Shown here: one piece after another, positions 4,328 through 52,900 of the stretch
Numbering within the stretch: position 1 is the first letter of the stretch
Layout: every line of letters begins with the position of its first letter
NCBI GenBank assembly: GCA_918026815.1
Contig: CAKJVC010000073.1
Coordinates: 62,001 to 126,000, forward strand
Origin: Chalara sp. BL73
Taxonomy: Eukaryota > Ascomycota > Leotiomycetes > Helotiales
Direction of reading: 5' to 3'
DNA: 64,000 nt
Made by a program: the position numbers and the translations under genes
Notes under the pieces: generated by a model
Databases searched by the model: none
What the model was told of the DNA's origin: nothing
Seen by the model: the letters and a program-made list of their open reading frames with translations, nothing else

Positions 4328-5141
4328 TATTGAGGCTATTTAGCCTTTCTGTATATGCCCTTCGGGTTGACTCGGATAAGTAGCGACCACCATGTTCACA
4401 ATATGTGTCTTACTTAAGAAGCGGACCAAAGCAACCCAATCACAATTACATTACAGTAGCTTGCAAAACGTCTTCACCTTTTGCACACGGTCTCTCTTCG
4501 AAGGTACGTTGTGCAAGGAATCCCCAGTCGCCACTTCCAAGAAGCTATGGCCCAGTTTTGGGACCACAGACTAATCATTATTCTCAGCCACCGCAGCCAT
4601 ATTTGAGGCTGGCTATCAGTGTGATTGTAGCTGTGCATACGAGAATTCTGGTGTCATTGTTGGAGTTCGGACCGCTGCTTTTGATAGAGAGTTGATGATA
4701 GTCTAGGGTTTGCGAACACGCTTAGGCACAGATAGATATAAATTTTTGAAGGCCGATAACTTTCATCTGAAGTAGTCATTAGCATCCCTTATTCTGGCAA
4801 TTATTCCTGGCTACTTAGCCACCGCCACAATTCTCAGCTGCTCACGCTTAGCCGCAACAAGCAATTTCTCACTTGGCAACATGATTGTAAGAAGGTTCGG
4901 CTGGAGGTCCGAACGCGTAACTTAGCTTAACCAAAGCGCCGGCCGAATAGCGCCTCGAATACGCCATGCCATCCTGAGTTAAAAAGCTTCACGCATCCCC
5001 CTGAGATCTCAAGGATTAGTTTTATCACGAACCAATCAGATACCCTTTGCCTCACACCAATACCCTCCCCCTATTACAGTGATTTATAGTCTCTCCTCTC
5101 ATAACTGTTGAAGTTCGACCCATCTTTTGCGCCTTACACCA
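4328..5141. other. No recognisable gene
   Basis: Open stretches exist on the plus strand (for example 4405-4695, rich in Ser, Pro and Tyr), but none resembles a known family and no convincing splice series extends them. Some Cys-rich reading around 4611-4706 (GYQCDCSCAYENSG) is intriguing but isolated. Confidence 0.4.
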
Positions 5142-7253
5142 ATGGCTGCTGTGTTGAGTTACCCAAGGCTGTTTCAACATACGACGAAAGCCATACAGTG
5201 GCATGCCCGTCGTAGAAGTGCTCAAATCTTTCGTTATTCCATTCAAAGCCAACACAGACAATCACGACCTTCTAAGAGTCATTTACGCGTTGGGTCTAGG
5301 CAAATTCGACTATTGTGTGGACATCGTACCAGGAACGGTGCGCTCTACGGCGATCTAGAGATATTTTCTATCGACTCCCCAGGGTTGCCCTCCTTCTATG
5401 CAGTATCGTATACCTGGGGCTCGCCAACTTACACAAATTCCATAAATGTCGGAGCAAAACACCTTCCGGTATTAGATTCACTGTACCTATTTCTACATAT
5501 CGCTTTCGACGAAAATCCGGGGAAATGGTGGTGGATAGATTCTCTCTGCATAGACCAAAATAATGACCACGAGAAAAGCTGTCAAGTTCCGCTGATAGGT
5601 CAAATATTTCAAATAGCCGAAAAAGCAATTGTCTGGCTGGAAAATAAGACGACTGACAGCGATGAAGCCTTAACCTTTCTAGAGTAGCTCGGCTGGGATT
5701 TCTACTATTCCGCAGCAACTTACGAACTGGACGTTAAAGAAGTAGCGGCTAAAACTGGACCATACTGCAGTCAGTGAGCTGCAGTAGAGTCATTGTTCCG
5801 CCGAAGCTGGTAAGTCAGCCATACATCAGCGCAAGTTTTCAATCATGCTTATGTTAGCTGCGTTAGATGGCGAAAAGTTTGGACTGTACAAGAGTGTATT
5901 GTTCCCCGAGGCCTCGTTTTCTACTGCGGTAACAGTAAAATGAGTCGAGCGACTTTACGTCGCGCTTTATCCTCGATCTGGACCTGCCATAGTACGAAAA
6001 GCACTCTCAGGTATGACGCACAGTGGAATAGATATCGAATAACGGAGTAGCATCATTCCGTGGATAATACATTTCACGGGAATCGATTCTCCTTAGCAGC
6101 TACTTTAGCTTACCTTGGAGATCACTATTCCACCAACGCAAGAGATCGAATCTACTCACTTGGCGGTCTCGTCAAGGACTTTGATTTAGTTGGAGTTCCC
6201 AACTACGCTCAGCCAACAAAAACACTCTACGCCAATCTTATCAAATCCTTTGTTGAACGATATCGTAACCTGGATATCGTTTGCTTTGCCACCATCTTCA
6301 ACAGCGATCAATCTGGTTTTGGAAGCGACCGATTACCGTCATGAGTGCCAGATTGGAGAGTCTCCGCTACACCGCTCGTTTGCCCATTAATGGTCAGCCA
6401 GAGTGCTAGACGGCACATCGGAAACTTTCGACCTCATCATTCGCTGGAATATTCCGTACGATATTCAGCCTCCCTTGATATCGAAGCTAAAGTTTCTTTT
6501 ACTGCCGATCTAGAAAAGATTCATTGCGAAGGTATTCTCTTGGATTTTGTTGATTCCATAAGCGGCTCGCCAGACCACACCGCGTTCCATGATCGACCGA
6601 GTAACAATCTCCACCAGACAAACTCTAGCGATCCCGTATTTTCTGACGACTTAAGGAGTTCCAAGCGGCATAAAAAGATACTTACAAAGCCGGAACGTGC
6701 ATATCTTATAGCCAACTCAATCATGAAGTGCTTAGTTCTCGATCGCGAAGATCGTTACCTCAACCACGTAGCACCTAAAAAGGAGTATATGGAAGATTTC
6801 TTGCGTTGCATTGCAGCGGCGGTGAACGATACCCCTGAGCTAGATGGCTGCTTTGGGGCGTAGTTCAACATGAACCGATCGTTTCTTATCGATTGTTTCG
6901 ATCTCCAGGCTCTGTTCAAAGCTCTTCCTAATGCAGACCAGCCAAGCTATTACAGATTACCAAGAATGGGTGGCCATAATAGCTTCATATCGAGATTCCA
7001 TGACACCGTCATGAAAATGAAACGGCGGCTTGCTACTTCAAACCGTGGGCTATATGGAATAGTACCGAAAAGGACAAAGAATGGTGACCTTATTATTATA
7101 TTATATAGGTGTAGCGTTCCTGTTATTCTTCGTCCTTGTGCAGATAGGGAAGCGTATCAATTTATTGGGGAATGTTACGTCGATGGCTTTATGAATGGGG
7201 AAGCAATACGTTCCAGGATGGGTTTGAGGAAGAAAACATTCAGAATCGTATAG
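5142..7253 (+). pseudogene. HET-domain protein, decayed by nonsense mutations
   Basis: A complete heterokaryon-incompatibility (HET) protein can be followed in one frame. The HET core (FYAVSYTWGSP, WWWIDSLCIDQN, IFQIAEKAIVWLE) comes first, then WRKVWTVQECIVPRG, a long middle, and the usual tail (GLYGIVPKRTKNGDLIIILY, then RPCADREAYQFIGECYVDG). One intron fits at 5810-5857 (GTAAGT...GTTAG, 48 nt). Five in-frame stops interrupt it: TAG 5685, TGA 5775, TAG 6048, TGA 6342 and TAG 6861. Each is one transition from Gln, Trp or Arg, and at 6342 the family expects Trp. No frameshift is needed downstream of the HET core, so decay was by point mutation only, as RIP would give. HET proteins trigger cell death on non-self contact; this copy cannot be translated in full. 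Confidence 0.8.
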
Positions 7254-11374: not shown

Positions 11375-12070
11375 ATGGAAGAGGAAGGTCTGGAAGTTGC
11401 TTGCGCCATTGGCAATGTGGATATCACCAGGGTTGTGCTAGAATCAGGTGTCGAGATCTCGGCTGCGGATAGCGTGGGCCGGACGCCAATATACACGACT
11501 GCTCGAAACGGGCACTTGGAAGTCCTCAGATTGCTCGTGGACGCCGGAGGCGATATCACGATCTCGGACAACGATGGACGAACGCCTTTGTACGTCACCG
11601 CGTTTCATGGGCATGTTAAAACGGCCGAACTGCTTCTTCGGCGCGGAGCCGACCTATCAGTTGCAAACAAGTTTAGCACGACGCCGTTGCGCCTCGCGGC
11701 AGATGAGGGACATTTTGAATTAGTAAAGTTGTTTATCGAGAATGGGGCCGACATTGAGGAAGGCGATGATGAAGGCTGGGCACCATTGATTTCCGCGTCT
11801 TGTTCAGGGTATGTCGATATTGTTAAGTTACTTATAGATTGTGGCGCCGACATTACAGCCTCGACAAACAGAGGATGGACGTCACTACTGTCCGCATCTG
11901 ACGCAGGACATATCGACATAGTTCAACTCCTTCTTAGCTGCGAGGCGGATATTACAACTACAGACGACGATGGATGGACACCGTTGTACGCAGCCTCTGT
12001 CCGTGGGCACCACAATATTGTCAAAATTCTCCTCGAGCAAGGCGCCAGTACCAGTGACCCATCTCAATAG
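11375..12070 (+). CDS. Ankyrin-repeat protein
   Basis: This single frame of 231 residues is made almost wholly of ankyrin repeats: about seven 33-residue units with the TPLYxxAxxGHxxxVxLLLxxGAD pattern (for example RTPIYTTARNGHLEVLRLLV, then GWTPLYAASVRGHHNIVKIL). Ankyrin stacks mediate protein-protein binding. No effector domain is attached. The frame begins at ATG 11375 directly with a partial repeat, so this could be the C-terminal exon of a longer ankyrin or NLR protein whose 5' part is gone; a short unrelated frame precedes it at 11272. There is no internal stop. Confidence 0.7.
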   Translation: MEEEGLEVACAIGNVDITRVVLESGVEISAADSVGRTPIYTTARNGHLEVLRLLVDAGGDITISDNDGRTPLYVTAFHGHVKTAELLLRRGADLSVANKFSTTPLRLAADEGHFELVKLFIENGADIEEGDDEGWAPLISASCSGYVDIVKLLIDCGADITASTNRGWTSLLSASDAGHIDIVQLLLSCEADITTTDDDGWTPLYAASVRGHHNIVKILLEQGASTSDPSQ

Positions 12071-15090: not shown

Positions 15091-18000
15091 TTAGAGGATC
15101 TGTGCCGTATCGTCTTGACCATCAAACAGTATAAAACGCTGCTGGATTGAACCCATCCCAACCCTCCTAAATTCCAATTCCAGAAATCGCTTTCTAACAA
15201 ACAGCACGTGATATTTCCGTTTCCCACCCTCTACTCCAGTCTCTCTTCCGATTATAACAAACCGTACATCTTCTAGTGGGACGTTCTCTAGTTCAGTATC
15301 AAAATGCAGATCCCCGACTTTGTTATTCTCCTTGTCATATATAACGCGATCGAGTTTGTTATCCTCGCGTTTGCTATCCTCGCGTTTGTTATCCTCGAGT
15401 TTGATCTCCCAATTTTGAAGTCGTCTTACTCGAGTCTCCAAAACAGAGTTGACCTTCATAATTTGAACGCTCTTATCCCATTCAATGTCTCCAAAGGTTA
15501 TGTTTTGCAAGTACTGGATCTTCCCGTCATATGCCATCCAAGACCACGATGGAGGCGCCTTACTAGCCGCGAAACGTATCTGCCCTAGGGGAGTATTCTG
15601 CGCCCGTTGCCACAGGACGCTTCTGTGGAGGAAGCATTCAAAGATCCCGTATCTAACATTGGTATCGAGAGCGTTGGCCAACGCTATGGCTAGTGAGTCG
15701 ATCGCCACGGGCCTGTCTGTCGGTTCTGTAATACCTAAGTTCGAGTAGTCCGTGAAAAGAGATTGAACAAGCTCGATTTGAGCCTTAACAGAACGGTCGT
15801 TAATAGAACGAGGAAATTCTGGGTCACTTCGAAAAGACAATTGCGCGCTGATTTTATTAGAAATTAGCAAGCTCATTATTAAGTACTCGGTAATAAATAA
15901 AGAAACACAAGCTGTAGAGACGAAAAGCGGCGCGTGTAAACTAAGCCCTGGATGTGGACTTACTTCCTCATATAAGTAAGCGTTTCGCAACGCACCCCAC
16001 CGCCACATTCCCAATATGTTTGCCTCTTCGTGAAATGGATTATTCGGCGTGATAAGGCTCGTTCCTGTAACACCCATGCCCGCTTATTCAAAACCCCTTC
16101 CACGACGTCGCCATCGAAATCATCAATTGATGTGCAAACATAGACTTTGCCATGTGAGGACGTGGCCACTGTCACATACTGCGGATCTTTCTCTTCCAGT
16201 GGAGGGCGGTTGAGAAATCCTTCGTTTGAGCTTTCGGCGGAGGTGGCAGCAATCGTATAGTAAGCATTCTTAAAGACTGCTTCCATCTTCTTGGATTCGG
16301 TCTTCCAGTCCTCTGGTTCATCCTGAATAATACAAAGCGAATCGATCCAGAGGTATTGCTGGCCGAGTTCTTGAGTGACTTTAATTGCGTCTTGAAATGT
16401 CTGCGGCAGCTTTGTAACTGGAAACCCTTTCGTCCTCTCATTTTTGTTGCCGATAGTTGTACACCAGTTCTTCTGTTCTTCCGTTGGAGCGCCCCAGCAA
16501 TGTGACAGAGCAACGTAGTGTACTCTTCGACTGATTTTGTCTTTGTCTGTCAAAACGAGGCGTGCGGTGCGGCCGTCTCCCACATCAATGACCCGGGTTG
16601 GCATTAGAGCTGTATCGGGGTCAGGACAGCATCCACCGCGTTGCGAGCATTTGCCTTCATCACAAAGTCGAATCCATTCCTTGATGAGTTCGAAATGGAG
16701 CGGGCTACCAGATTGTAGAAATCCGGGAAGTCCGGGTTGGATTGATCTTAACCTTCCATAGTCATCTTGGGGCTCTAAATAATATTAGCTGTTTATTCTA
16801 GAACTTTCAACAAAGTAGAGCAGTTTCACACACTCGGCACAGCACAGATCCTTACATATTGCCGAGCTTCAAGAAGTCGCGTCTCGGGCTCCTTGTTCCT
16901 GGCTTCTTCAAGGCGTTTGGAGAAGATTTGACAGAGAACACAGCTATCCTCTCGATTATGTAACGAAAAGAGAGGGGCATTTAGGTCAAGATTTCGACAG
17001 TAATCGCATAATTTTGAAGAGTCTTCATGACTAGGGGGCAAATTTAACTGAATTTCTGCAACGTTGGATGGGTAGGTCCATTCCTGGTGGGCATGCTAGA
17101 TTTGTTCATCTATATTAGCATTATATACTACAGACAGTGTATAAGCTAACTCACAAACTAGCAAATTAAAACAAATATAGTCAGCTATATTATTAGGTTA
17201 ACATAGCAATACATACTTCCTAAAGTATAATATTAGCCACCTACTTTCCCTATATTATCGGCAGAGCTACACTTACATCCTAAATCACCATAAAGACGCC
17301 TACGGTCAGCTACTCCCTCCTCTCTCCCTTATTAGCAGAGCTGTACTTACACGCTAAATCACCATAAAGACGCCCACGGTCAGCTACTCCCTCCTCTCTC
17401 CTTTATCGGCAGAGCTCGACTTACATCCTAAATCACCATAAAGACGCCCACGGTCAGCTACTTCTTCCTCTTTCTTTTACTAGCAGAGCTGGACTTACAG
17501 ACTAAATCACCATAAAGACGCCTACGGTCAGCTATTCCTTCCTCTCTCCTTTATCGGCAAAGCTCGATTTACATCCTAAATCACCATAAAGACGCCTACG
17601 GTCAGCTACTCTTTCCTCTTTCCTTTATCGGCAGAGCTGGACTTACAGACTAAATCACCATAAAAACGCCCACGGTCAGCTACTCCCTCCTCTTTCCTTT
17701 ATCGGCAGCGCTCGACTTACATACTAATTCACCATAAAGACGCCCACGGTCAGCTACTTCCTCCTCTCTCCTTTATTGGCAGCGCTCGACTTACAGCCTA
17801 ATTCACCATAAAGACGGCCACGGTCAGCTACTTTCTTTTATCGGCAGAGCTCGACTTACACCCTAAATCACCATAAAGACGGCCACGGTCAGTTACTCTC
17901 TCCTCTCTCCTTTACTAGCAGAGCTAGACTTACAGCCTAAATCACCATAAAGACGCCCACGGTCAGCTACTCCCTCCTCTCTCTTTTATCGGCAGAGCTG

Positions 18001-20233
18001 GACTTACAGCCTAAATCACCATAAAGACGCCCACGGTCAGCTACTCCCTCCTCTCTCCTTTATCGGCAGAGCTCGACTTACAATCTAATTCACCATAAAG
18101 ACGCCTACGGTTAGCTACTCCCTCCTCTCTTAGCAGAGCTGTACTTACAAACTAAATCACCATAAGGACGCCCACGATCAGCTACTCTCTCCCTTATCGG
18201 CAGAGCTGGACTTACAGCCTAATTCACCATAAAGACGCCTACGGTCAGCTACTCCCTCCTCTCTCCCTTATCGGCAGAGCTCGACTTACAAGCTAAATCA
18301 CCATAAAGACGCCCACGGTCAGCTACTCCCTCCTCTCTTAGCAGAGCTGTACGTACAAACTAAATCACCATAAGGACGCCTACGGTCAGCTACTCTCTCC
18401 TCTCTCCCTTACTATCAGAGCTGGACTTACAAACTACATCACCATAAAGACGCCCACGGTCAGCTGCTTCCTCCTCTCTCCTTTATCGGCAGAGCTCGAC
18501 TTACACGCTAAATCACCATAAGGACGCCCACGGTCAGCTACTCTCTCCTCTCTCTCTTATCGGCAGAGCTATACTTACTTCCTAAATCACCATAAAGACG
18601 CCCACGGTCAGCTACTACCTCCTCTCTCCTTTATCGGCAGAGCTCGACTTACATCCTAAATCACCATAAAAACGCCCACGGTCAGCTACTCTCTCCTCTC
18701 TCCTTTATCGGCAGAGCTGGACTTACATCCTAAATCACCATAAAGACGCCCACGGTCAGCTACTCCCTCCTCTCTCCCTTATCGGCAGAGCTCGACTTAC
18801 AAGCTAAATCACCATAAGGACGCCCACGGTCAGCTACTCCTTCCTATTAGTAGAGCTGGACTTACAACCTAAATCACCATAAAGACGCCCACGGTCAGCA
18901 ACTACCTCCTCTCTCCTTTATTAGAGAGCTATACTTACATACTAAATCACCATAAGAACGCCCACGGTCAGCAACTTCCTCCTCTCTCCCTTATCGGCAG
19001 AGCTGGACTTACACGCTAATTCACCATAAAGACGCCCACGGTCAGCTACTCCCTCCTCTCTCCTTTATCGGCAGAGCTGGACTTACATACTAAATCACCA
19101 TAAAGACGCCCACGGTCAGCTACTTCTTCCTCTTTCCTTTATCGGCAGAGCTGGACTTACACGCTAATTCACCATAAAGACGCCCACGGTCAGCTACTTC
19201 CTCCTCTCTTTTTTACTAGCAGAGCTGAACTTACAGCCTAAATCACCATAAAGACGCCCACGGTCAGCTACTCTCTCCTCTCTCCCTTATCGGCAGAGCT
19301 GTACTTACAGCCTAAATCACCATAAGGACGCCCACGGTCAGCAACTCCCTCCTGTCTCCCTTATCGACAAAGCTAGACGTACACCCTAAATCATCATAAA
19401 GACGCCCACGGTCAGCTACTCCCTTTTCTCTCCTTTATCAGAGAGCTGTACTTACATACTAATTCACCATAAGGACACCCACAGTCAGCTACTCCTTCCT
19501 CTCTCTCTTATCGGCAGAGCTGGACTTACACGCTAATTCACCATAAAGACGCCCACGGTTAGCTACTCCTTCCTCTCTCTTTTATCGGCAGAGCTGGACT
19601 TACAAGCTAATTCACCATAACGACGCCTACGGTCAGCTACTTCTTCTTCTTTCTCTTATCGGCAGAGCTGGACTTACATCCTAATTTACCATAAGGACGC
19701 CCACGGTCAGCTACTCTTTCCTCTTTCTTTTATCGGCAGAGCTATACTTACGAACTAAATCACCATAAGGACGCTCACGGTCAGCTACTCCCTCCTCTCT
19801 TTCTTATCGGCAGAGCTAGACTTACACGCTAAATCACCATAAAAACGCCCACGGTCAGCTACTACCTCCTCTCTCTTTTATCGGCAGAGCTGGACTTACA
19901 GCCTAATTCACCATAAAGACGCCCACGGTCAGCTACTCTCTCCTCTCTCCCTTATCGGCAGAGCTGTACTTACATCCTAAATCACCATAAGGACGCCCAC
20001 GGTCAGCTACTCCCTCCTCTCTTCCCAGAGCTGGACTTACATCCTAATTCACCATAAAGACGCCCACGGTCAGCTACTCCCTCCTCTCTCCCTTATCGGC
20101 AGAGCTGTACTTACTTCCTATATTAATATTATTATAGGCAATAGATACTGTCCTAGATTATAGCACTTACTTGAAAGTATTCACCATGATCCTCCCCGCT
20201 ATCGAAAGTGTAGGAAGATTTCGTCGCCATCAT
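15091..20233 (-). CDS. HET-domain protein with a 42-microexon hypervariable segment
   Basis: Proposed 46-exon gene. Exon 1 is 20233-20171 (21 codons, starting ATGATGGCG and ending GAATACTTTCAA before GTAAGT). Then come 42 exons of exactly 3 nt, and HET exons 17095-16834, 16774-15964 and 15847-15091, totalling 672 residues. The last two introns are 59 nt (GTGTGT...TTTAG) and 116 nt (GTAAGT...ATCAG), and all phases close. The HET part shows Cys pairs (LCDYCRNLDL, CVLCQIF), the HET core (VHYVALSHCWGAPTEEQ, QQYLWIDSLCIIQDE), NKRAWVLQERALSRRI, YWECGGGVRCET, and the usual C-terminal half. The first HET exon has no ATG in frame before the domain and is open back to a CTAG acceptor at 17096, so a start must be spliced in from upstream. 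A short charged tandem repeat (KREDNKREDSKRED) lies near the C-terminus. HET proteins execute incompatibility cell death. The splicing is inferred from signals and phase. Confidence 0.72.
17155..20117 (-). repeat. 74-bp tandem array: intron plus 3-nt microexon, ~40 near-identical units
   Basis: On the minus strand each unit reads TTTAG or ATTAG (acceptor), three bases, GTAAGT (donor), a polypyrimidine/purine spacer, AGCTGACC (branch point) and again the acceptor. The three-base exons start at plus positions 20115, 20041, 19974, 19900, 19826, 19752, 19678, 19604, 19530, 19456, 19383, 19309, 19235, 19161, 19087, 19013, 18939, 18866, 18801, 18727, 18653, 18579, 18505, 18431, 18357, 18290, 18216, 18149, 18082, 18008, 17934, 17860, 17795, 17721, 17647, 17573, 17499, 17425, 17351, 17277, 17217 and 17155. 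All are phase 0. Codons: Asp 8, Ala 7, Arg 6, Phe 5, Tyr 4, Leu 3, Glu 3, Gly 2, Ser 2, Val 1, Ile 1; the first 14 read EDDARFDLRYGAAR. 38 of 42 end in T. Intron length is mostly 71 nt (range 57-71). The last two units (17155-17276) are diverged. Confidence 0.85.
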
Positions 20234-20307
20234 GTTAGGGAGACAAAGTAGAGGACAGATATGTGGTGATGTAAAAGGATGGATTGCCAGCTCAGAGGCG
20301 CTTGTCA

Positions 20308-20319
20308 GATATATGTAGA
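20308..20319 (-). promoter_or_regulatory. TATA-like box upstream of the microexon HET gene
   Basis: The minus strand reads CTACATATATCT about 75-85 bases before the proposed ATG at 20233, a plausible fungal TATA position. The only support is its sequence and spacing. Confidence 0.3.
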
Positions 20320-20363
20320 GGCTAAGCCTAAAAGGGACTAATAGGTCACGTGCTAAAATCCTC

Positions 20364-20820
20364 CTACCACTCAAGTAAGAGCATTATTACCTCTGCTCCA
20401 AATCTACTTGCAATTATCTTCACCATATCTTCTGTAATCACTGCATCTGCCCCGCGCTGCTCAAGCAAGAGTATCATCACCTCTTCCCAACAGGACCTAT
20501 TCCCTGCCGCTGCTTTCACTACTTCTTCTGTAATCACTACGTCTGCCTTACGCTGCTCAAGCAAGACCATTATCACCTCTTTCCACGGGACCCATTCCCT
20601 GCCGCTACTTTTATCACCTCCTCTGTAACCACCACCTCTACCCCGCGCTGCTCAAGTAAGAGCATTATCACTTCTTTCCCACAAAGCCGATTCCCTGCCG
20701 CTACTTTTATCACCTCTTCTGTAATCACCGCCTCTGCCCCGCGCTGTTCAAGCAAAAGCATCATCACCTCTTTCCCAAATCTACTTGCAATTATCTTCAC
20801 ATACCCAATTGTTCGAAATG
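20364..20820 (-). pseudogene. NLR-associated ~42-residue repeat relic
   Basis: The minus strand encodes about four copies of a unit of the form EVIMLLLEQRGAEAVITEEV followed by KVAAGN, a repeat known from the C-termini of fungal NACHT and related recognition proteins. The frame shifts by one near 20573-20590 (between the AAGNGSRGK segment and VIMVLLEQRKAD). The array begins abruptly at about 20820 and stops at TAG 20364-20366, so only the repeat end of the original gene remains. It lies about 130 bases upstream of the microexon HET start on the same strand and overlaps that gene's likely promoter region. Confidence 0.6.
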
Positions 20821-49055: not shown

Positions 49056-49727
49056 ATGTCGGGCGCTGAAGCAGGTCTTGGTCTTGGCCTAATAAGCTCT
49101 ATCATCACGATCATCGAAACCACCTATCAACTCTACGAAGCTGTCGAAGATGAAAAGGGCCTCCCGGCTAATTTCAAGAAGGCGGCGTCAAAACTACCGC
49201 TGATCTCGAAAATCCTTGACGATGCAGAAAAATATATCGAATCCGTACGAGACGAGGACAAGAAAGCTGGTCTCAAGCCTACCCTTGAAAGTTGCAAGCT
49301 TCAGGCAACACGTCTTCAGGACATCTTTACAAAGGCCATGCCAGACGAAGATGACTCGAGGTGGGATCGGTATGTGAAGGCAGCTCGCACAATTGGAAAG
49401 GGAGGTCGTATAGAGGATTTAGTTAGGGGGATCTTAGACAGCCTGCAACTCATGTCAATAAACTTCCCAGAAGTGGCATCACCAAGATCAAAACAGCAAT
49501 TGGAAAAGGCCGTTCAGGAAGTCTCTGAGATGGAACCTTCCTTGCCTGATGGTTTCGAGGAAGCGCCTGCATTTGCACACTATGGCAGTGGCGCCCAAAA
49601 TGTGAATACAGGTGGTGGAAGTCAGTATAACAACAACAGTACTGGCAATCAGAACAACGGTCCGGGTCAGCAATATATTGGCACAAATAACATTGGTACG
49701 CCTTCTACATCGCAGAAACCATCTTGA
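49056..49727 (+). CDS. SesA-domain protein with Gly/Asn/Gln prion-like tail (N-terminal part of the NLR)
   Basis: The 223-residue frame starts MSGAEAGLGLGLISSIITII and reads ETTYQLYEAV, PANFKKAASKLPLISKIL and LQATRLQDIFTKAMP, a good SesA N-terminal domain as found on fungal NACHT proteins. Residues about 175-215 are rich in Gly, Asn and Gln in a G-x-Q-x-N rhythm (GAQNVNTGGGSQYNNNSTGN), like amyloid signalling segments that link NLRs to effectors. In many fungal NLRs this module directly precedes NACHT. The NACHT frame begins 254 bases further on, so this may be a separate effector gene or the first exon of one NLR now split by a stop at 49725-49727. Confidence 0.7.
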   Translation: MSGAEAGLGLGLISSIITIIETTYQLYEAVEDEKGLPANFKKAASKLPLISKILDDAEKYIESVRDEDKKAGLKPTLESCKLQATRLQDIFTKAMPDEDDSRWDRYVKAARTIGKGGRIEDLVRGILDSLQLMSINFPEVASPRSKQQLEKAVQEVSEMEPSLPDGFEEAPAFAHYGSGAQNVNTGGGSQYNNNSTGNQNNGPGQQYIGTNNIGTPSTSQKPS

Positions 49728-49980
49728 AGGATCTTGTGTATTTGATAGGGTCGAAGTCGAGGAGAAATAAAACTTTTTCCTATCACACCTCTGCAAGCTC
49801 CAAGCACATGATGTCTATTTCTTAGTAAATCAATTTTCCAAGTCCACGACTAACATTATTGAAGATCAAAGTGTAACTATGCACAATCATGCTATTGGTA
49901 AGGCTGATCCTATATGCAAAAGTTCTTGCTAAAGACGCTTATAATTGGATAAAGCCCTTAGCTGACGGCTATCAGTAGAT

Positions 49981-52900
49981 ATGATGAGTCAATGCCTCCA
50001 AGATTTATGGGTGACAGATCCTGATGCCGACATGGATCGGATTGAGAGTACAAAAGATACCTTACTGAAAGACTGCTACGCATGGATTCTCGATGACCAG
50101 CACCTTCAATACTGGCAAAACAACGACGACTGTCGGCTTCTCTGGATGAATGGTGATCCCGGAAAAGGAAAAACGATGCTGATGATTGCTCTAATCCACG
50201 AGCTACGAGAACGTGCAAGCAGTGAATCAGCTACATTAGCCTTCTTCTTCTGCCAGAGTACTGAGCCCACACTCAACAATGTAGACTCAGTACTTCGAGG
50301 TCTTACTTGGAAGCTGGTTCACAAGGATCCCCAGTTGGCCCAAGACCTTATTGAAGAGTACAGGGCTAGAGGAAAAACCTGTTCGATGGTCCAAATACAA
50401 CAAGCAAAATATGTTCAATTCTTTCGAAGATATTGAACAATTCCGCACTTCCAAAAGTCTATATCCTCATTGATGCCGTAGACGAGTGTGATACAGGACG
50501 GGACCAACTGTTGGAATTCATTACCAAGAATGCAGCTGATCCGTCTTCGAAGGTAAAATGGCTCCTATCAAGTCGCAATTACCTCAAAATCCAAGAGATC
50601 TTAAACCCTCAAGATGACCGTCGCATTCTCAACTTAGAGCTGAATTCTTCGCATGTTTCTCAGGCAGTCAACACTTTTATTAACTACAAGAGCAACAAAC
50701 TGGCGAGACGGAAAAGGTATGCCAATGCTCTCCGGCTGGAAGTCAACCGTCAACTTAAAGAGAAGGCCGGATCGACTTTCCTCTGGGCGGCCCTTGTTTT
50801 CAAGGAGCTAGAGGTTGTGGAGGGCTGGGACGTGCTCGATGTGCTTGAAGAAATGCCGCCTGGGTTGGAACCACTCTATAATCGGATGATGCAGCACATT
50901 CAACAGCTACAGCGAAAAGATCCTGAATTCTGTCGTCGGATCCTATCCACTATGGCTGTCGCACACCGCCCACTTCACCTCCTCGAGTTAGGGGCCCTTT
51001 CTAGTCTGCCTGAGCAAATTTGCAACGATTTTGACAAGATTGTAAGGGTTGTTAATAAATGCGGCTCGTTCCTCACTATACGGAAAAATCGTGCCTATTT
51101 TATTCATCAATCTGCAAAGGACTTTTTGCTTAGGCAGGCATTTGACAAGGTGTGTTTCCTTCTGGTACAGTAAAAGTGAACTATACAATCTTCTCGAGAT
51201 CGCTACAAGTTATGTCCGAGACTCTACGACAAAACATTTATATGCTGGATCATCCCGGAACCTTTATTAATGACATCAAGCCGCGAAATCCAGATCCACT
51301 TACAGCTGTGCAATACTCTTGTGCTAATTGGGTGGAGCATTTCCTCATAACCCTAGGCCAAACTTCGGATCCCTAGAATGAATTATCTGATACCGGAGCT
51401 ATTCTTGCTTTCTTCCAGTGCCATTTCCTTCATTGGCTTGAGGCATTAAGTCTTATCGGGGGATTGTCTAAAAGCATTAGCATAGTCGACGACTTGCTAC
51501 GGATAGTAGTAGACGTAAGTTTCTCATGAATATCAAGTACGTGTATATACTTATATAATTTTGTTAGCTCGAGACAAGCACTAAACTTCCAGCATTCCTC
51601 CATGATGCAAAGCGTTTTATTAGTTTTTACTATCCAGTAATTAGCTCCTCACCTCTCCAACTCTACTCTTCGGCATTGATTTTTACTCCAAAGGCAACCA
51701 TTATTCGAAAGACATTCCAGGAAAATATACCGAACTGGATATTACAGCAACCGGTAATCGAGCCTAATTGGAATGCCTGCCAGCAGACACTCGAGGGCCA
51801 CAGCGATATAGTTAGATCTATAGCCTTCTCCCACGACTCGAAGCTGCTCGCATCGGGGTCTGACGACAATACGGTCAAGATCTGGGACCCGAGCACAGGC
51901 ACCTGCTAGCAAACGCTTAAGGGCTACATTAGTAGAGTTACTTCTGTAGTTTTCTCCCACGACTCGAAGCTGCTCGCGTCGAGGTGTAATAACGAAACGG
52001 TCAAGATTTAGGACCCGAGCACAGGCGCCTGCCAGCAGTCGCTTAAGGTCCACAGCAGTTGGGTTTATTTTATAGCTTTCTCCCACGACTCGAGGCTGCT
52101 CGCATCGGGGTCTAACAACAATACGGTCAAGATCTGGGACCCGAACACAGGCGCCTGCCAGCAGACACTCGAGGGGCACAGCGGTTGGGTCTTGTCTATA
52201 GCTTTCTCCCACGACTCAAAGCTGCTCGCATCGGGATCTGACGACAAGACGGTCAAGATCTGGGACCCGAACACAGGCGCCTGCCAGCAGACGCTTAAGG
52301 TCCACAGGGGTGGGGTCACTTCTGTAGCCTTCTCCCACGACTCGAAGCTGCTCGCATCGGGGTCTGGCGATAGGACGGTCAAGATCTGGGACCCGAGCAC
52401 AGGCGCCTGCCAGCAGACGCTCGAGGGGCACAGCGGTTAGGTCTTGTCTATAGCCTTCTCCCACGACTCAAAGCTGCTCGCATCGGGATCTGACGACAAG
52501 ACGGTTAAGATCTGGGACCCGAACACAGGCGCCTGCCAGCAGACGCTTAAGGTCTACAGGGGTAGAGTCACTTCTGTAGCTTTCTTTTACGACTCGAAGC
52601 TGCTCGCATCGGGGTCTAGTAATAAAACGGTCAAGATCTGGGACTCGAACACAGGCGTCTGCCAGCAGACGCTCGAGGGCCACAGCGGTTCGGTCTATTC
52701 TATAGCCTTCTCGCACGACTCAGACCTTCTCGTTAATGGTAATATCATCAAGGTGGACGGAATAGGATTCCTTACTACGGGTCAATATCCTCAAGAGGGA
52801 AAAGATGATACTTATCACCAAGAATTAAGTCTGAAAGGCTCGTGGGTCACGTTTAATACGCAGAAATTGCTCTGGCTACCACCCGACTACCGACCAGAAG

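Follow-up and report, generated by a model that had tools for sequence, protein, structure and literature searches.

A predicted array of 42 one-codon exons in a HET gene of the Leotiomycete Chalara sp. BL73

We analyzed a 64,000-nucleotide stretch of the Chalara sp. BL73 genome (contig CAKJVC010000073.1, positions 62,001 to 126,000; hereafter the window), whose minus strand carries a gene of the HET family, which serves self/nonself recognition, with a tandem array of short introns. Comparison within the genome confirms the array as a real feature of the predicted HET gene, in which each array unit would contribute an exon of a single codon. We consider it probable that the N-terminal segment of the HET protein is built from 42 predicted 3-base exons and forms a recognition segment that varies residue by residue. 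Splicing of the microexons is predicted with high confidence from the genomic sequence, and a role of the array in diversification with moderate confidence. Below, C67 denotes the array locus of the HET gene in the window, and other C-labels denote other loci of the same genome (58.7 Mb in 199 contigs, with at least 150 HET matches), which was searched throughout.

Joined in phase 0, exon 1, the 42 microexons (GAA at 20117–20115 to TTT at 17157–17155, minus strand) and the three HET exons (17095–15091) give a frame of 672 codons without a stop, with 45 introns (Table 1). The HET domain is the sole Pfam match in the 672-residue product (residues 237–388, 115.5 bits against a cut-off of 22.5). 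The first HET exon lacks an in-frame ATG, the next exon has one (MPTRV), and on neither strand does an open reading frame of at least 100 amino acids overlap 16605–20572. A preliminary description of the window had claimed that every unit consists of a 3′ splice site, three bases and a 5′ splice site, that the frame runs in phase 0 through 42 single-codon exons without a stop, that the HET exon is open back to its acceptor at 17096 and has no in-frame ATG of its own, and that the gene would contain 45 introns. We recovered each of these properties, with 42 of 42 microexons placed directly after TAG and before GT.

Table 1. Elements of the predicted HET gene, in window positions.
Feature	Position	Strand	Basis or remark
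Exon 1, 21 codons, MMATKSSYTFDSGEDHGEYFQ	20171-20233	minus	ends at donor GTAAGT, phase 0
First intron, 53 nt, no copy of the repeat unit	20118-20170	minus	sequence
Microexons 1-39, 3 nt each, and 39 similar introns of 62-71 nt	17280-20117	minus	unit table, Tandem Repeats Finder, column statistics
Microexons 40-42: GAT 17279-17277, GAA 17219-17217, TTT 17157-17155	17096-17279	minus	
First HET-gene exon after the array, HAHQEWTYPSN...LCDYC...	16834-17095	minus	open back to acceptor
Exon carrying the HET domain	15964-16774	minus	Pfam PF06985, E 3.4e-33
Last exon, ending in TAA	15091-15847	minus	sequence

The donors of the 42 microexons read GTAAGT in 37 cases, GTACGT in two, and GTAAAT, GTATGT and GTGAGT in one each. 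Introns following units 1–39 measure 71 nt in 31 of 39 cases and contain a branch-like CTGAC, CTAAC or CTGAT, with 26 nt after its A in the consensus. The other eight differ in length between the donor and the branch-like motif, and their exons and splice sites are unaffected. The first intron, which starts with GTAAGTGCTRYRATCT in C67, C9 and C59, and the introns after microexons 41 and 42 are not copies of the repeat, the intron after microexon 40 resembles it in its first part only, and the splice signals around the 3-nt exons are canonical at all of these positions. Two further repeats adjoin or lie within the gene: 96-bp repeats just 5′ of exon 1 (window 20428–20775), with a minus-strand unit of about 32 residues, EVIMLLLEQRGAEAVITEEVIK..., and a 15-bp repeat in the last exon (15350–15403) that encodes repeated EDNKR-like residues.

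Chains of 3-nt exons occur at six further loci: C7 (51 codons), C9 (35), C59 (17), C127 (8, up to a broken acceptor), C3 (7) and C22 (7). C9, C7, C59, C127 and C3 are HET paralogues, each with its own chain 5′ of the first HET exon, the start of which is homologous in C9 and C59. At C3 (L043, reverse strand) kinase and HET domains lie in one apparent gene, linked by seven 3-nt exons with unrelated introns. C22 is an ankyrin-repeat gene whose seven 3-nt exons (GTT GAT CTG TGG GTT TGG TGG; L053, C22:168000-172000, reverse strand 1757–2186) sit between ankyrin repeats. At a further HET locus, C156 (L048, reverse strand 4909–5240), the HET exon follows five or six exons of 3 nt, whose introns are non-repeated; this chain is the weakest, with less canonical donors. 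In total, 6 of 11 HET paralogue loci (C9, C59, C3, C127, C7 and C156) have a chain above background. L050, a stretch beside the window that is no HET paralogue, was used as background. Within one array intron of C7 (L047, approximately 2520–2780) lies an insertion of about 260 bp with TGTAAC/GTTACA ends; the neighboring microexons are unaffected.

An exon length of three is in marked excess over the whole genome. The pattern GTAAGT N45-75 YAG N(k) GTAAGT, searched with reversed controls, matched 111 times for k = 3 (control 12), five times for k = 4 (control 15) and seven times for k = 6 (control 15). By a recount on the seven loci with chains, 109 of the 111 matches fall within them, the other two being single matches at C11 and C65. 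Chain scores for k = 3 reach 131.5 at C9, 110.2 in the first block of C7, 58.2 at C59, 31.0 at C127, 29.0 at C22 (with one artefact row included, and k = 7 and 8 left out for this locus) and 22.7 at C3, while other exon lengths score at most 11.0 except for k = 7 (up to 40.8, at C7) and k = 8 at C7 (23.7); the k = 7 scores are the same sites re-read 4 nt on. In 400 Markov sequences for each locus, the maxima are 7.0 for C3 (which scores 22.7) and 7.4 for C156 (14.5), and none of 62 other stretches, some of which overlap, scores above 7.8. The 3′ part of C7 scores 52.0, with other lengths up to 15 at 5.5 or below, apart from k = 7 (19.0).

These comparisons bear on the simplest alternative, a non-coding minisatellite whose unit holds splice-like motifs by accident. 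Tandem Repeats Finder does describe the array as a repeat of 74-bp period with 85% matches, but the 3-nt spacing is kept at other loci whose introns are unlike those of this array, and in some chains the introns are not repeats at all. The mean pair score of introns, against shuffled interiors, is 0.86 versus 0.46 in C67, 0.39 versus 0.40 in C3 and 0.49 versus 0.45 in the 3′ part of C7; in the latter two the introns are hardly or not alike, and the exons are still 3 nt long. The claim that the array is no plain minisatellite is thus borne out by the genome-wide excess of length three, by the chains with non-repeated introns and by 167 microexon codons without a stop. Given also the constraint on splice sites and codons described below, we reject the minisatellite, which we regard as scarcely credible.

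Constraint on the splice sites was evaluated, together with column statistics, on the homogeneous units only (39 of 42 in C67, 32 of 35 in C9, 32 of 51 in C7 and 14 of 17 in C59). Changes in GT or AG number 0 of 156 in C67, against 15.9 expected from the rest of the intron, 1 of 128 in C9 (14.1 expected), 1 of 128 in C7 (16.0) and 1 of 56 in C59 (6.2), those in C9 and C7 both being GC donors. The chain finder requires AG and favors GT, but a unit broken there would appear as a double-length gap, and none occurs among the C67 units.

Stop codons provide a second measure. The 167 microexon codons of the seven loci contain no stop against 8.5 expected when each codon column is shuffled within its array, and none of 5000 such shuffles gave zero. 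By locus, the expectation is 3.77 for C9, 2.35 for C59, 1.66 for C7, 0.43 for C67, 0.25 for C22, 0.06 for C3 and 0 for C127. Within the window the test is weak (P(0) = 0.63 for C67), since 36 of 39 units have T as their third base, and it becomes strong only when the other loci are added. It leaves out C156, three later codons of C127, the first two C7 rows, which by eye are part of the 5′ exons, and the first C22 row, a chain-finder artefact (TGA with a GTCGCT donor, and GTGAGT just before); with that C22 row kept, there is one stop in 168.

Codon positions 1 and 2 are far more variable than the introns. Diversity (pi) at codon positions 1, 2 and 3 is 0.66, 0.76 and 0.15 in C67, 0.72, 0.59 and 0.73 in C9, 0.67, 0.70 and 0.57 in C7, and 0.76, 0.58 and 0.71 in C59, where the mean intron pi is 0.108, 0.143, 0.154 and 0.164, respectively. 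No other column among the 74 of the C67 unit varies as much as codon positions 1 and 2, and departures from the modal base in C67 number 20, 26 and 3 of 39 at the three positions, with an intron background of 0.102. Fourfold codons end in T in 21 of 21 cases in C67, 4 of 4 in C59 and 13 of 15 in C7. In C67, C7 and C59 the variation resembles the outcome of selection on the residue that the predicted frame encodes; C9 fits less well. The 167 codons favor certain residues (R 30, E 25, D 16, Y 14, L 13, W 11), and the first and last codons are the same (GAA ... GAA TTT) in C67, C9 and C59.

The variation also bears on a second alternative, in which splicing and translation of the microexons do take place but the array arises passively, by near-neutral duplication of intron plus codon in a flexible linker that has no part in recognition. 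Symmetric exons would tolerate changes in copy number, the number of units does vary widely by locus (7 to 51), and the chain precedes the HET exons and, in C3, follows the kinase domain. Against this stand most codon positions in the four arrays, which are several times more variable than the introns (position 3 of C67 excepted), the skewed codon use and the shared terminal codons. We consider a passive array rather unlikely.

Two other alternatives accept the HET gene but exclude the microexons from its product, and can be judged from exon 1 and from proteins of other genera. Exon 1 sits upstream of the array at three loci, as MATKSSYTFDSGEDHGEYFQ in C67, MATKPSCTSDSKKDHGDYFS in C9 and MATKPFCISESEKDHGEYFF in C59, and its ratios of non-synonymous to synonymous change (dN/dS, by the Nei–Gojobori method, NG86), which are rough over 20 codons, are 0.29 for C67–C9, 0.11 for C67–C59 (dS saturated) and 0.19 for C9–C59; the HET part gives 0.41 over 600 codons for C67–C9. 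The best-scoring proteins include those of Amylocarpus, Cudoniella, Rhexocercosporidium, Cadophora, Fusarium, Dactylonectria and Diaporthe, the top two (Amylocarpus and Cudoniella) at 69–70% identity. A homologue of exon 1 opens F. oxysporum P0003 and also occurs in Cudoniella P0002, and the start of the first HET exon has homologues in P0003, P0007, P0008, P0011 and P0012. In the stretch before the HET exon the homologue gene models disagree.

If translation started within the HET exons, at MPTRV, the array would be untranslated or intergenic and would at most affect expression. Several homologue models do begin at MPTRV (P0006, P0010, P0013 and P0017); yet most homologue models that extend to the exon before it show that exon conserved, and exon 1, upstream of the array, is conserved too, which makes such a start very unlikely. 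The array might instead be removed as one long intron, or the microexons usually all be skipped, with exon 1 joined to 17095. This second joined model is also in frame, and F. oxysporum P0003 has nearly the direct-joined form, MVTKFSRVSDTEKDHGEYF-LF-AWDKW. It would, however, leave unexplained the conserved splice sites of the units, the 167 codons without a stop and the variation specific to codons, and we judge it improbable.

Some homologue models look as if they read through arrays of the same kind. Diaporthe P0016 contains YGAICLLTLVVFGDIESKSWCADETER, a gapless match that spans the end of one C59 intron, the codon after it and the beginning of the following intron (63% over 27 residues, E 8e-8 in a database of 8 sequences with filters off). 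Fusarium solani P0012 shows lesser similarity to exon 1 and to the end of an intron (E 2e-4 and 0.03), and Dactylonectria P0007 matches the end of the C9 array plus the HET exon (E 7e-6). A protein search with the Diaporthe read-through segment found only the protein itself, and one that used the first 72 residues of the F. oxysporum protein returned that protein and a single one from F. anthophilum; the linkers of kinase-HET proteins, compared by eye, were too variable to use.

Based on these observations, we return to the reading of the array as a recognition segment assembled from one-codon exons, and propose the following mechanism. Each short intron (GTAAGT ... CTGAC ... TAG) would be recognized as a unit by intron definition, so that an exon of 3 nt would not have to be bound on both sides simultaneously, and each intron removed would add one codon to the growing exon. 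Since all exons are of 3 bases and in phase 0, any skipping, loss or duplication of units keeps the HET frame. Arrays would expand and contract by unequal exchange between similar introns, selection would act on the microexon codons, and alternative inclusion, as reported for the Tuber nank genes in passages that cite them, may add isoforms. Cell death would be effected by the downstream HET domain, whose trigger the one-codon segment would tune.

Several points weigh against the reading of the array as a diversifying recognition segment: (i) a part for this protein in recognition or cell death is taken over from its family; (ii) fourfold codons of C9 end in G five times, in C four times and in A once, which does not suit a purely amino-acid-driven diversification; (iii) codon difference is independent of intron distance in four of four arrays (Mantel r near 0; p 0.41, 0.77, 0.32 and 0.65), an absence of correlation that simple unit duplication alone does not predict; (iv) the 17 codons of C59 and the 8 of C127, both decayed loci, are likewise free of stops, and the stop test therefore fails to tell live loci from dead ones; and (v) no chain above background was found at 5 of the 11 HET paralogue loci (C10, C175, C11, C3:1441191 and C7:1240397, the C11 locus lying near a contig end), so that a HET gene does not require an array.

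The third of these points leaves the notion of units as simple recent duplicates that bring their codon with them unsupported. C67 introns 29 and 38 are identical over 71 nt yet preceded by ATT and GAT, respectively. Codons may turn over much faster than introns; alternatively, introns may be homogenized separately from codons, for example by short conversion tracts together with selection against codon change. A three-unit block, CCT CGT CTC, is present twice in C7.

With regard to decay, C59 has TAG where its relatives have TGG in KEWLRL, and C127 has TAA 15 codons into the first HET exon; these loci with in-frame stops also have damaged splice sites, ATAAGT at a donor and TGTAA at an acceptor, two cases which suggest that splice sites decay along with the gene. 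Simple stop counts by themselves do not prove decay, as TAA is listed for C9, whose joined exons are open.

More broadly, and rather tentatively, arrays of one-codon exons may be a general generator of diversity in fungal genes of immune type (HET, kinase-HET and ankyrin), where homologous introns would be the substrate of recombination and exons single-residue cassettes, splicing and unequal exchange would edit the recognition segment residue by residue, and diversifying selection would act on codon positions 1 and 2. If the arrays are spliced as predicted, the spliceosome handles 42 to 51 consecutive 3-base exons, which strains models that need exon space, and gene models in this HET subfamily would be faulty at the N-terminus: of the homologue models read here, some start late, some skip and some apparently translate introns. 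The arrays would also offer a setting in which nonself recognition could be tested directly for residue-level copy number, alternative splicing and diversifying selection, and would carry the truffle case, so far little known, over to other genes and, probably, to another fungal class.

We compared the array with other systems of small exons or similar introns. Schistosome micro-exon genes and aphid bicycle genes share with it many tiny exons per gene and fast protein change; their exons are larger than 3 nt, and their proteins are unrelated to the HET gene. Introner-like elements and stwintrons of ascomycetes are likewise near-identical spliceosomal introns present in number. Unlike introner-like elements, the three intron families here are not dispersed over the genome: 39 of 39 matches of the C67 family lie in this array, 46 matches of the C9 family in C9 and C59, and 32 of the C7 family in C7, in searches that skip common words and in which absence is not proof. 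Introner invasion is rejected for this array, the C67 intron being unmatched elsewhere within that limit. Unlike stwintrons, which are nested, the introns here are complete and adjoining; neighbors are 3 nt apart, every intron has a donor and an acceptor to itself, and those of units 1–39 also have a branch-like motif, and we reject this class as well.

The closest known case is that of the truffle Tuber melanosporum, a Pezizomycete. Passages in four papers (PMC3689799, PMC4986451, PMC10197012, PMC9815663) refer to T. melanosporum genes, NACHT-ANK where named, with codon-sized or 3-bp microexons that are alternatively spliced, their number being given as tens or dozens in three of the four passages and as 'multiple' in the other; two of the four credit Iotti et al. 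2012. The preliminary description had held that no gene with a long run of 3-nt exons was described, a claim that this precedent, as cited there, overturns; its gene model, by contrast, is supported by the paralogue chains, by the conserved exon 1 and by constrained splice sites. Like the Tuber nank genes, as characterized in those passages, the gene in the window is of nonself-recognition type and strings together tens of 3-bp exons (42, as judged from splice signals, phase and comparison), and the ankyrin gene at C22, with its seven, is the nearest parallel and looks to be of the same kind. The gene in the window is not a NACHT-ANK gene, HET being the only domain matched, and differs further in that the arrays here belong mostly to HET genes (one with a kinase domain), precede the HET domain instead of lying in a C-terminal recognition domain, have similar introns in tandem, occur in a Leotiomycete and are known from genomic sequence alone.

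Among the papers listed in searches of a literature collection with few subscription journals, we saw no description of 3-nt exon arrays in HET genes, and the truffle nank genes were the only precedent. What is new is thus probably the combination of a known exon size and broad gene class with HET genes, similar tandem introns and another fungal class. The abstract of PMC11121469 calls functional microexons previously undescribed in filamentous fungi, although its reference list includes the truffle paper; in plants and flies, one-nucleotide and single 3-bp exons are on record (PMC7392893, PMC8831610). The repeats (WD40, ANK, TPR) of fungal NOD-like receptors (NLRs), which according to a passage in PMC4986451 undergo concerted evolution and have a few hypervariable codons, resemble the array as homogeneous tandem units with a small number of variable codon positions in nonself-recognition genes, whereas here the homogeneous part is the intron and the variable part the whole one-codon exon.

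Finally, the window holds two other features. An NLR-type gene on the plus strand (49056–52760) has a SesA domain (Pfam, 7.4e-40), a NACHT-like stretch recognized by reading, and 7.5 copies of a 126-bp WD40-like repeat with TAG where sister repeats have CAG or TGG; it looks like a decayed copy, possibly affected by repeat-induced point mutation. Also on the plus strand, a 231-residue open frame (11375–12070) is ankyrin-repeat-like by reading.

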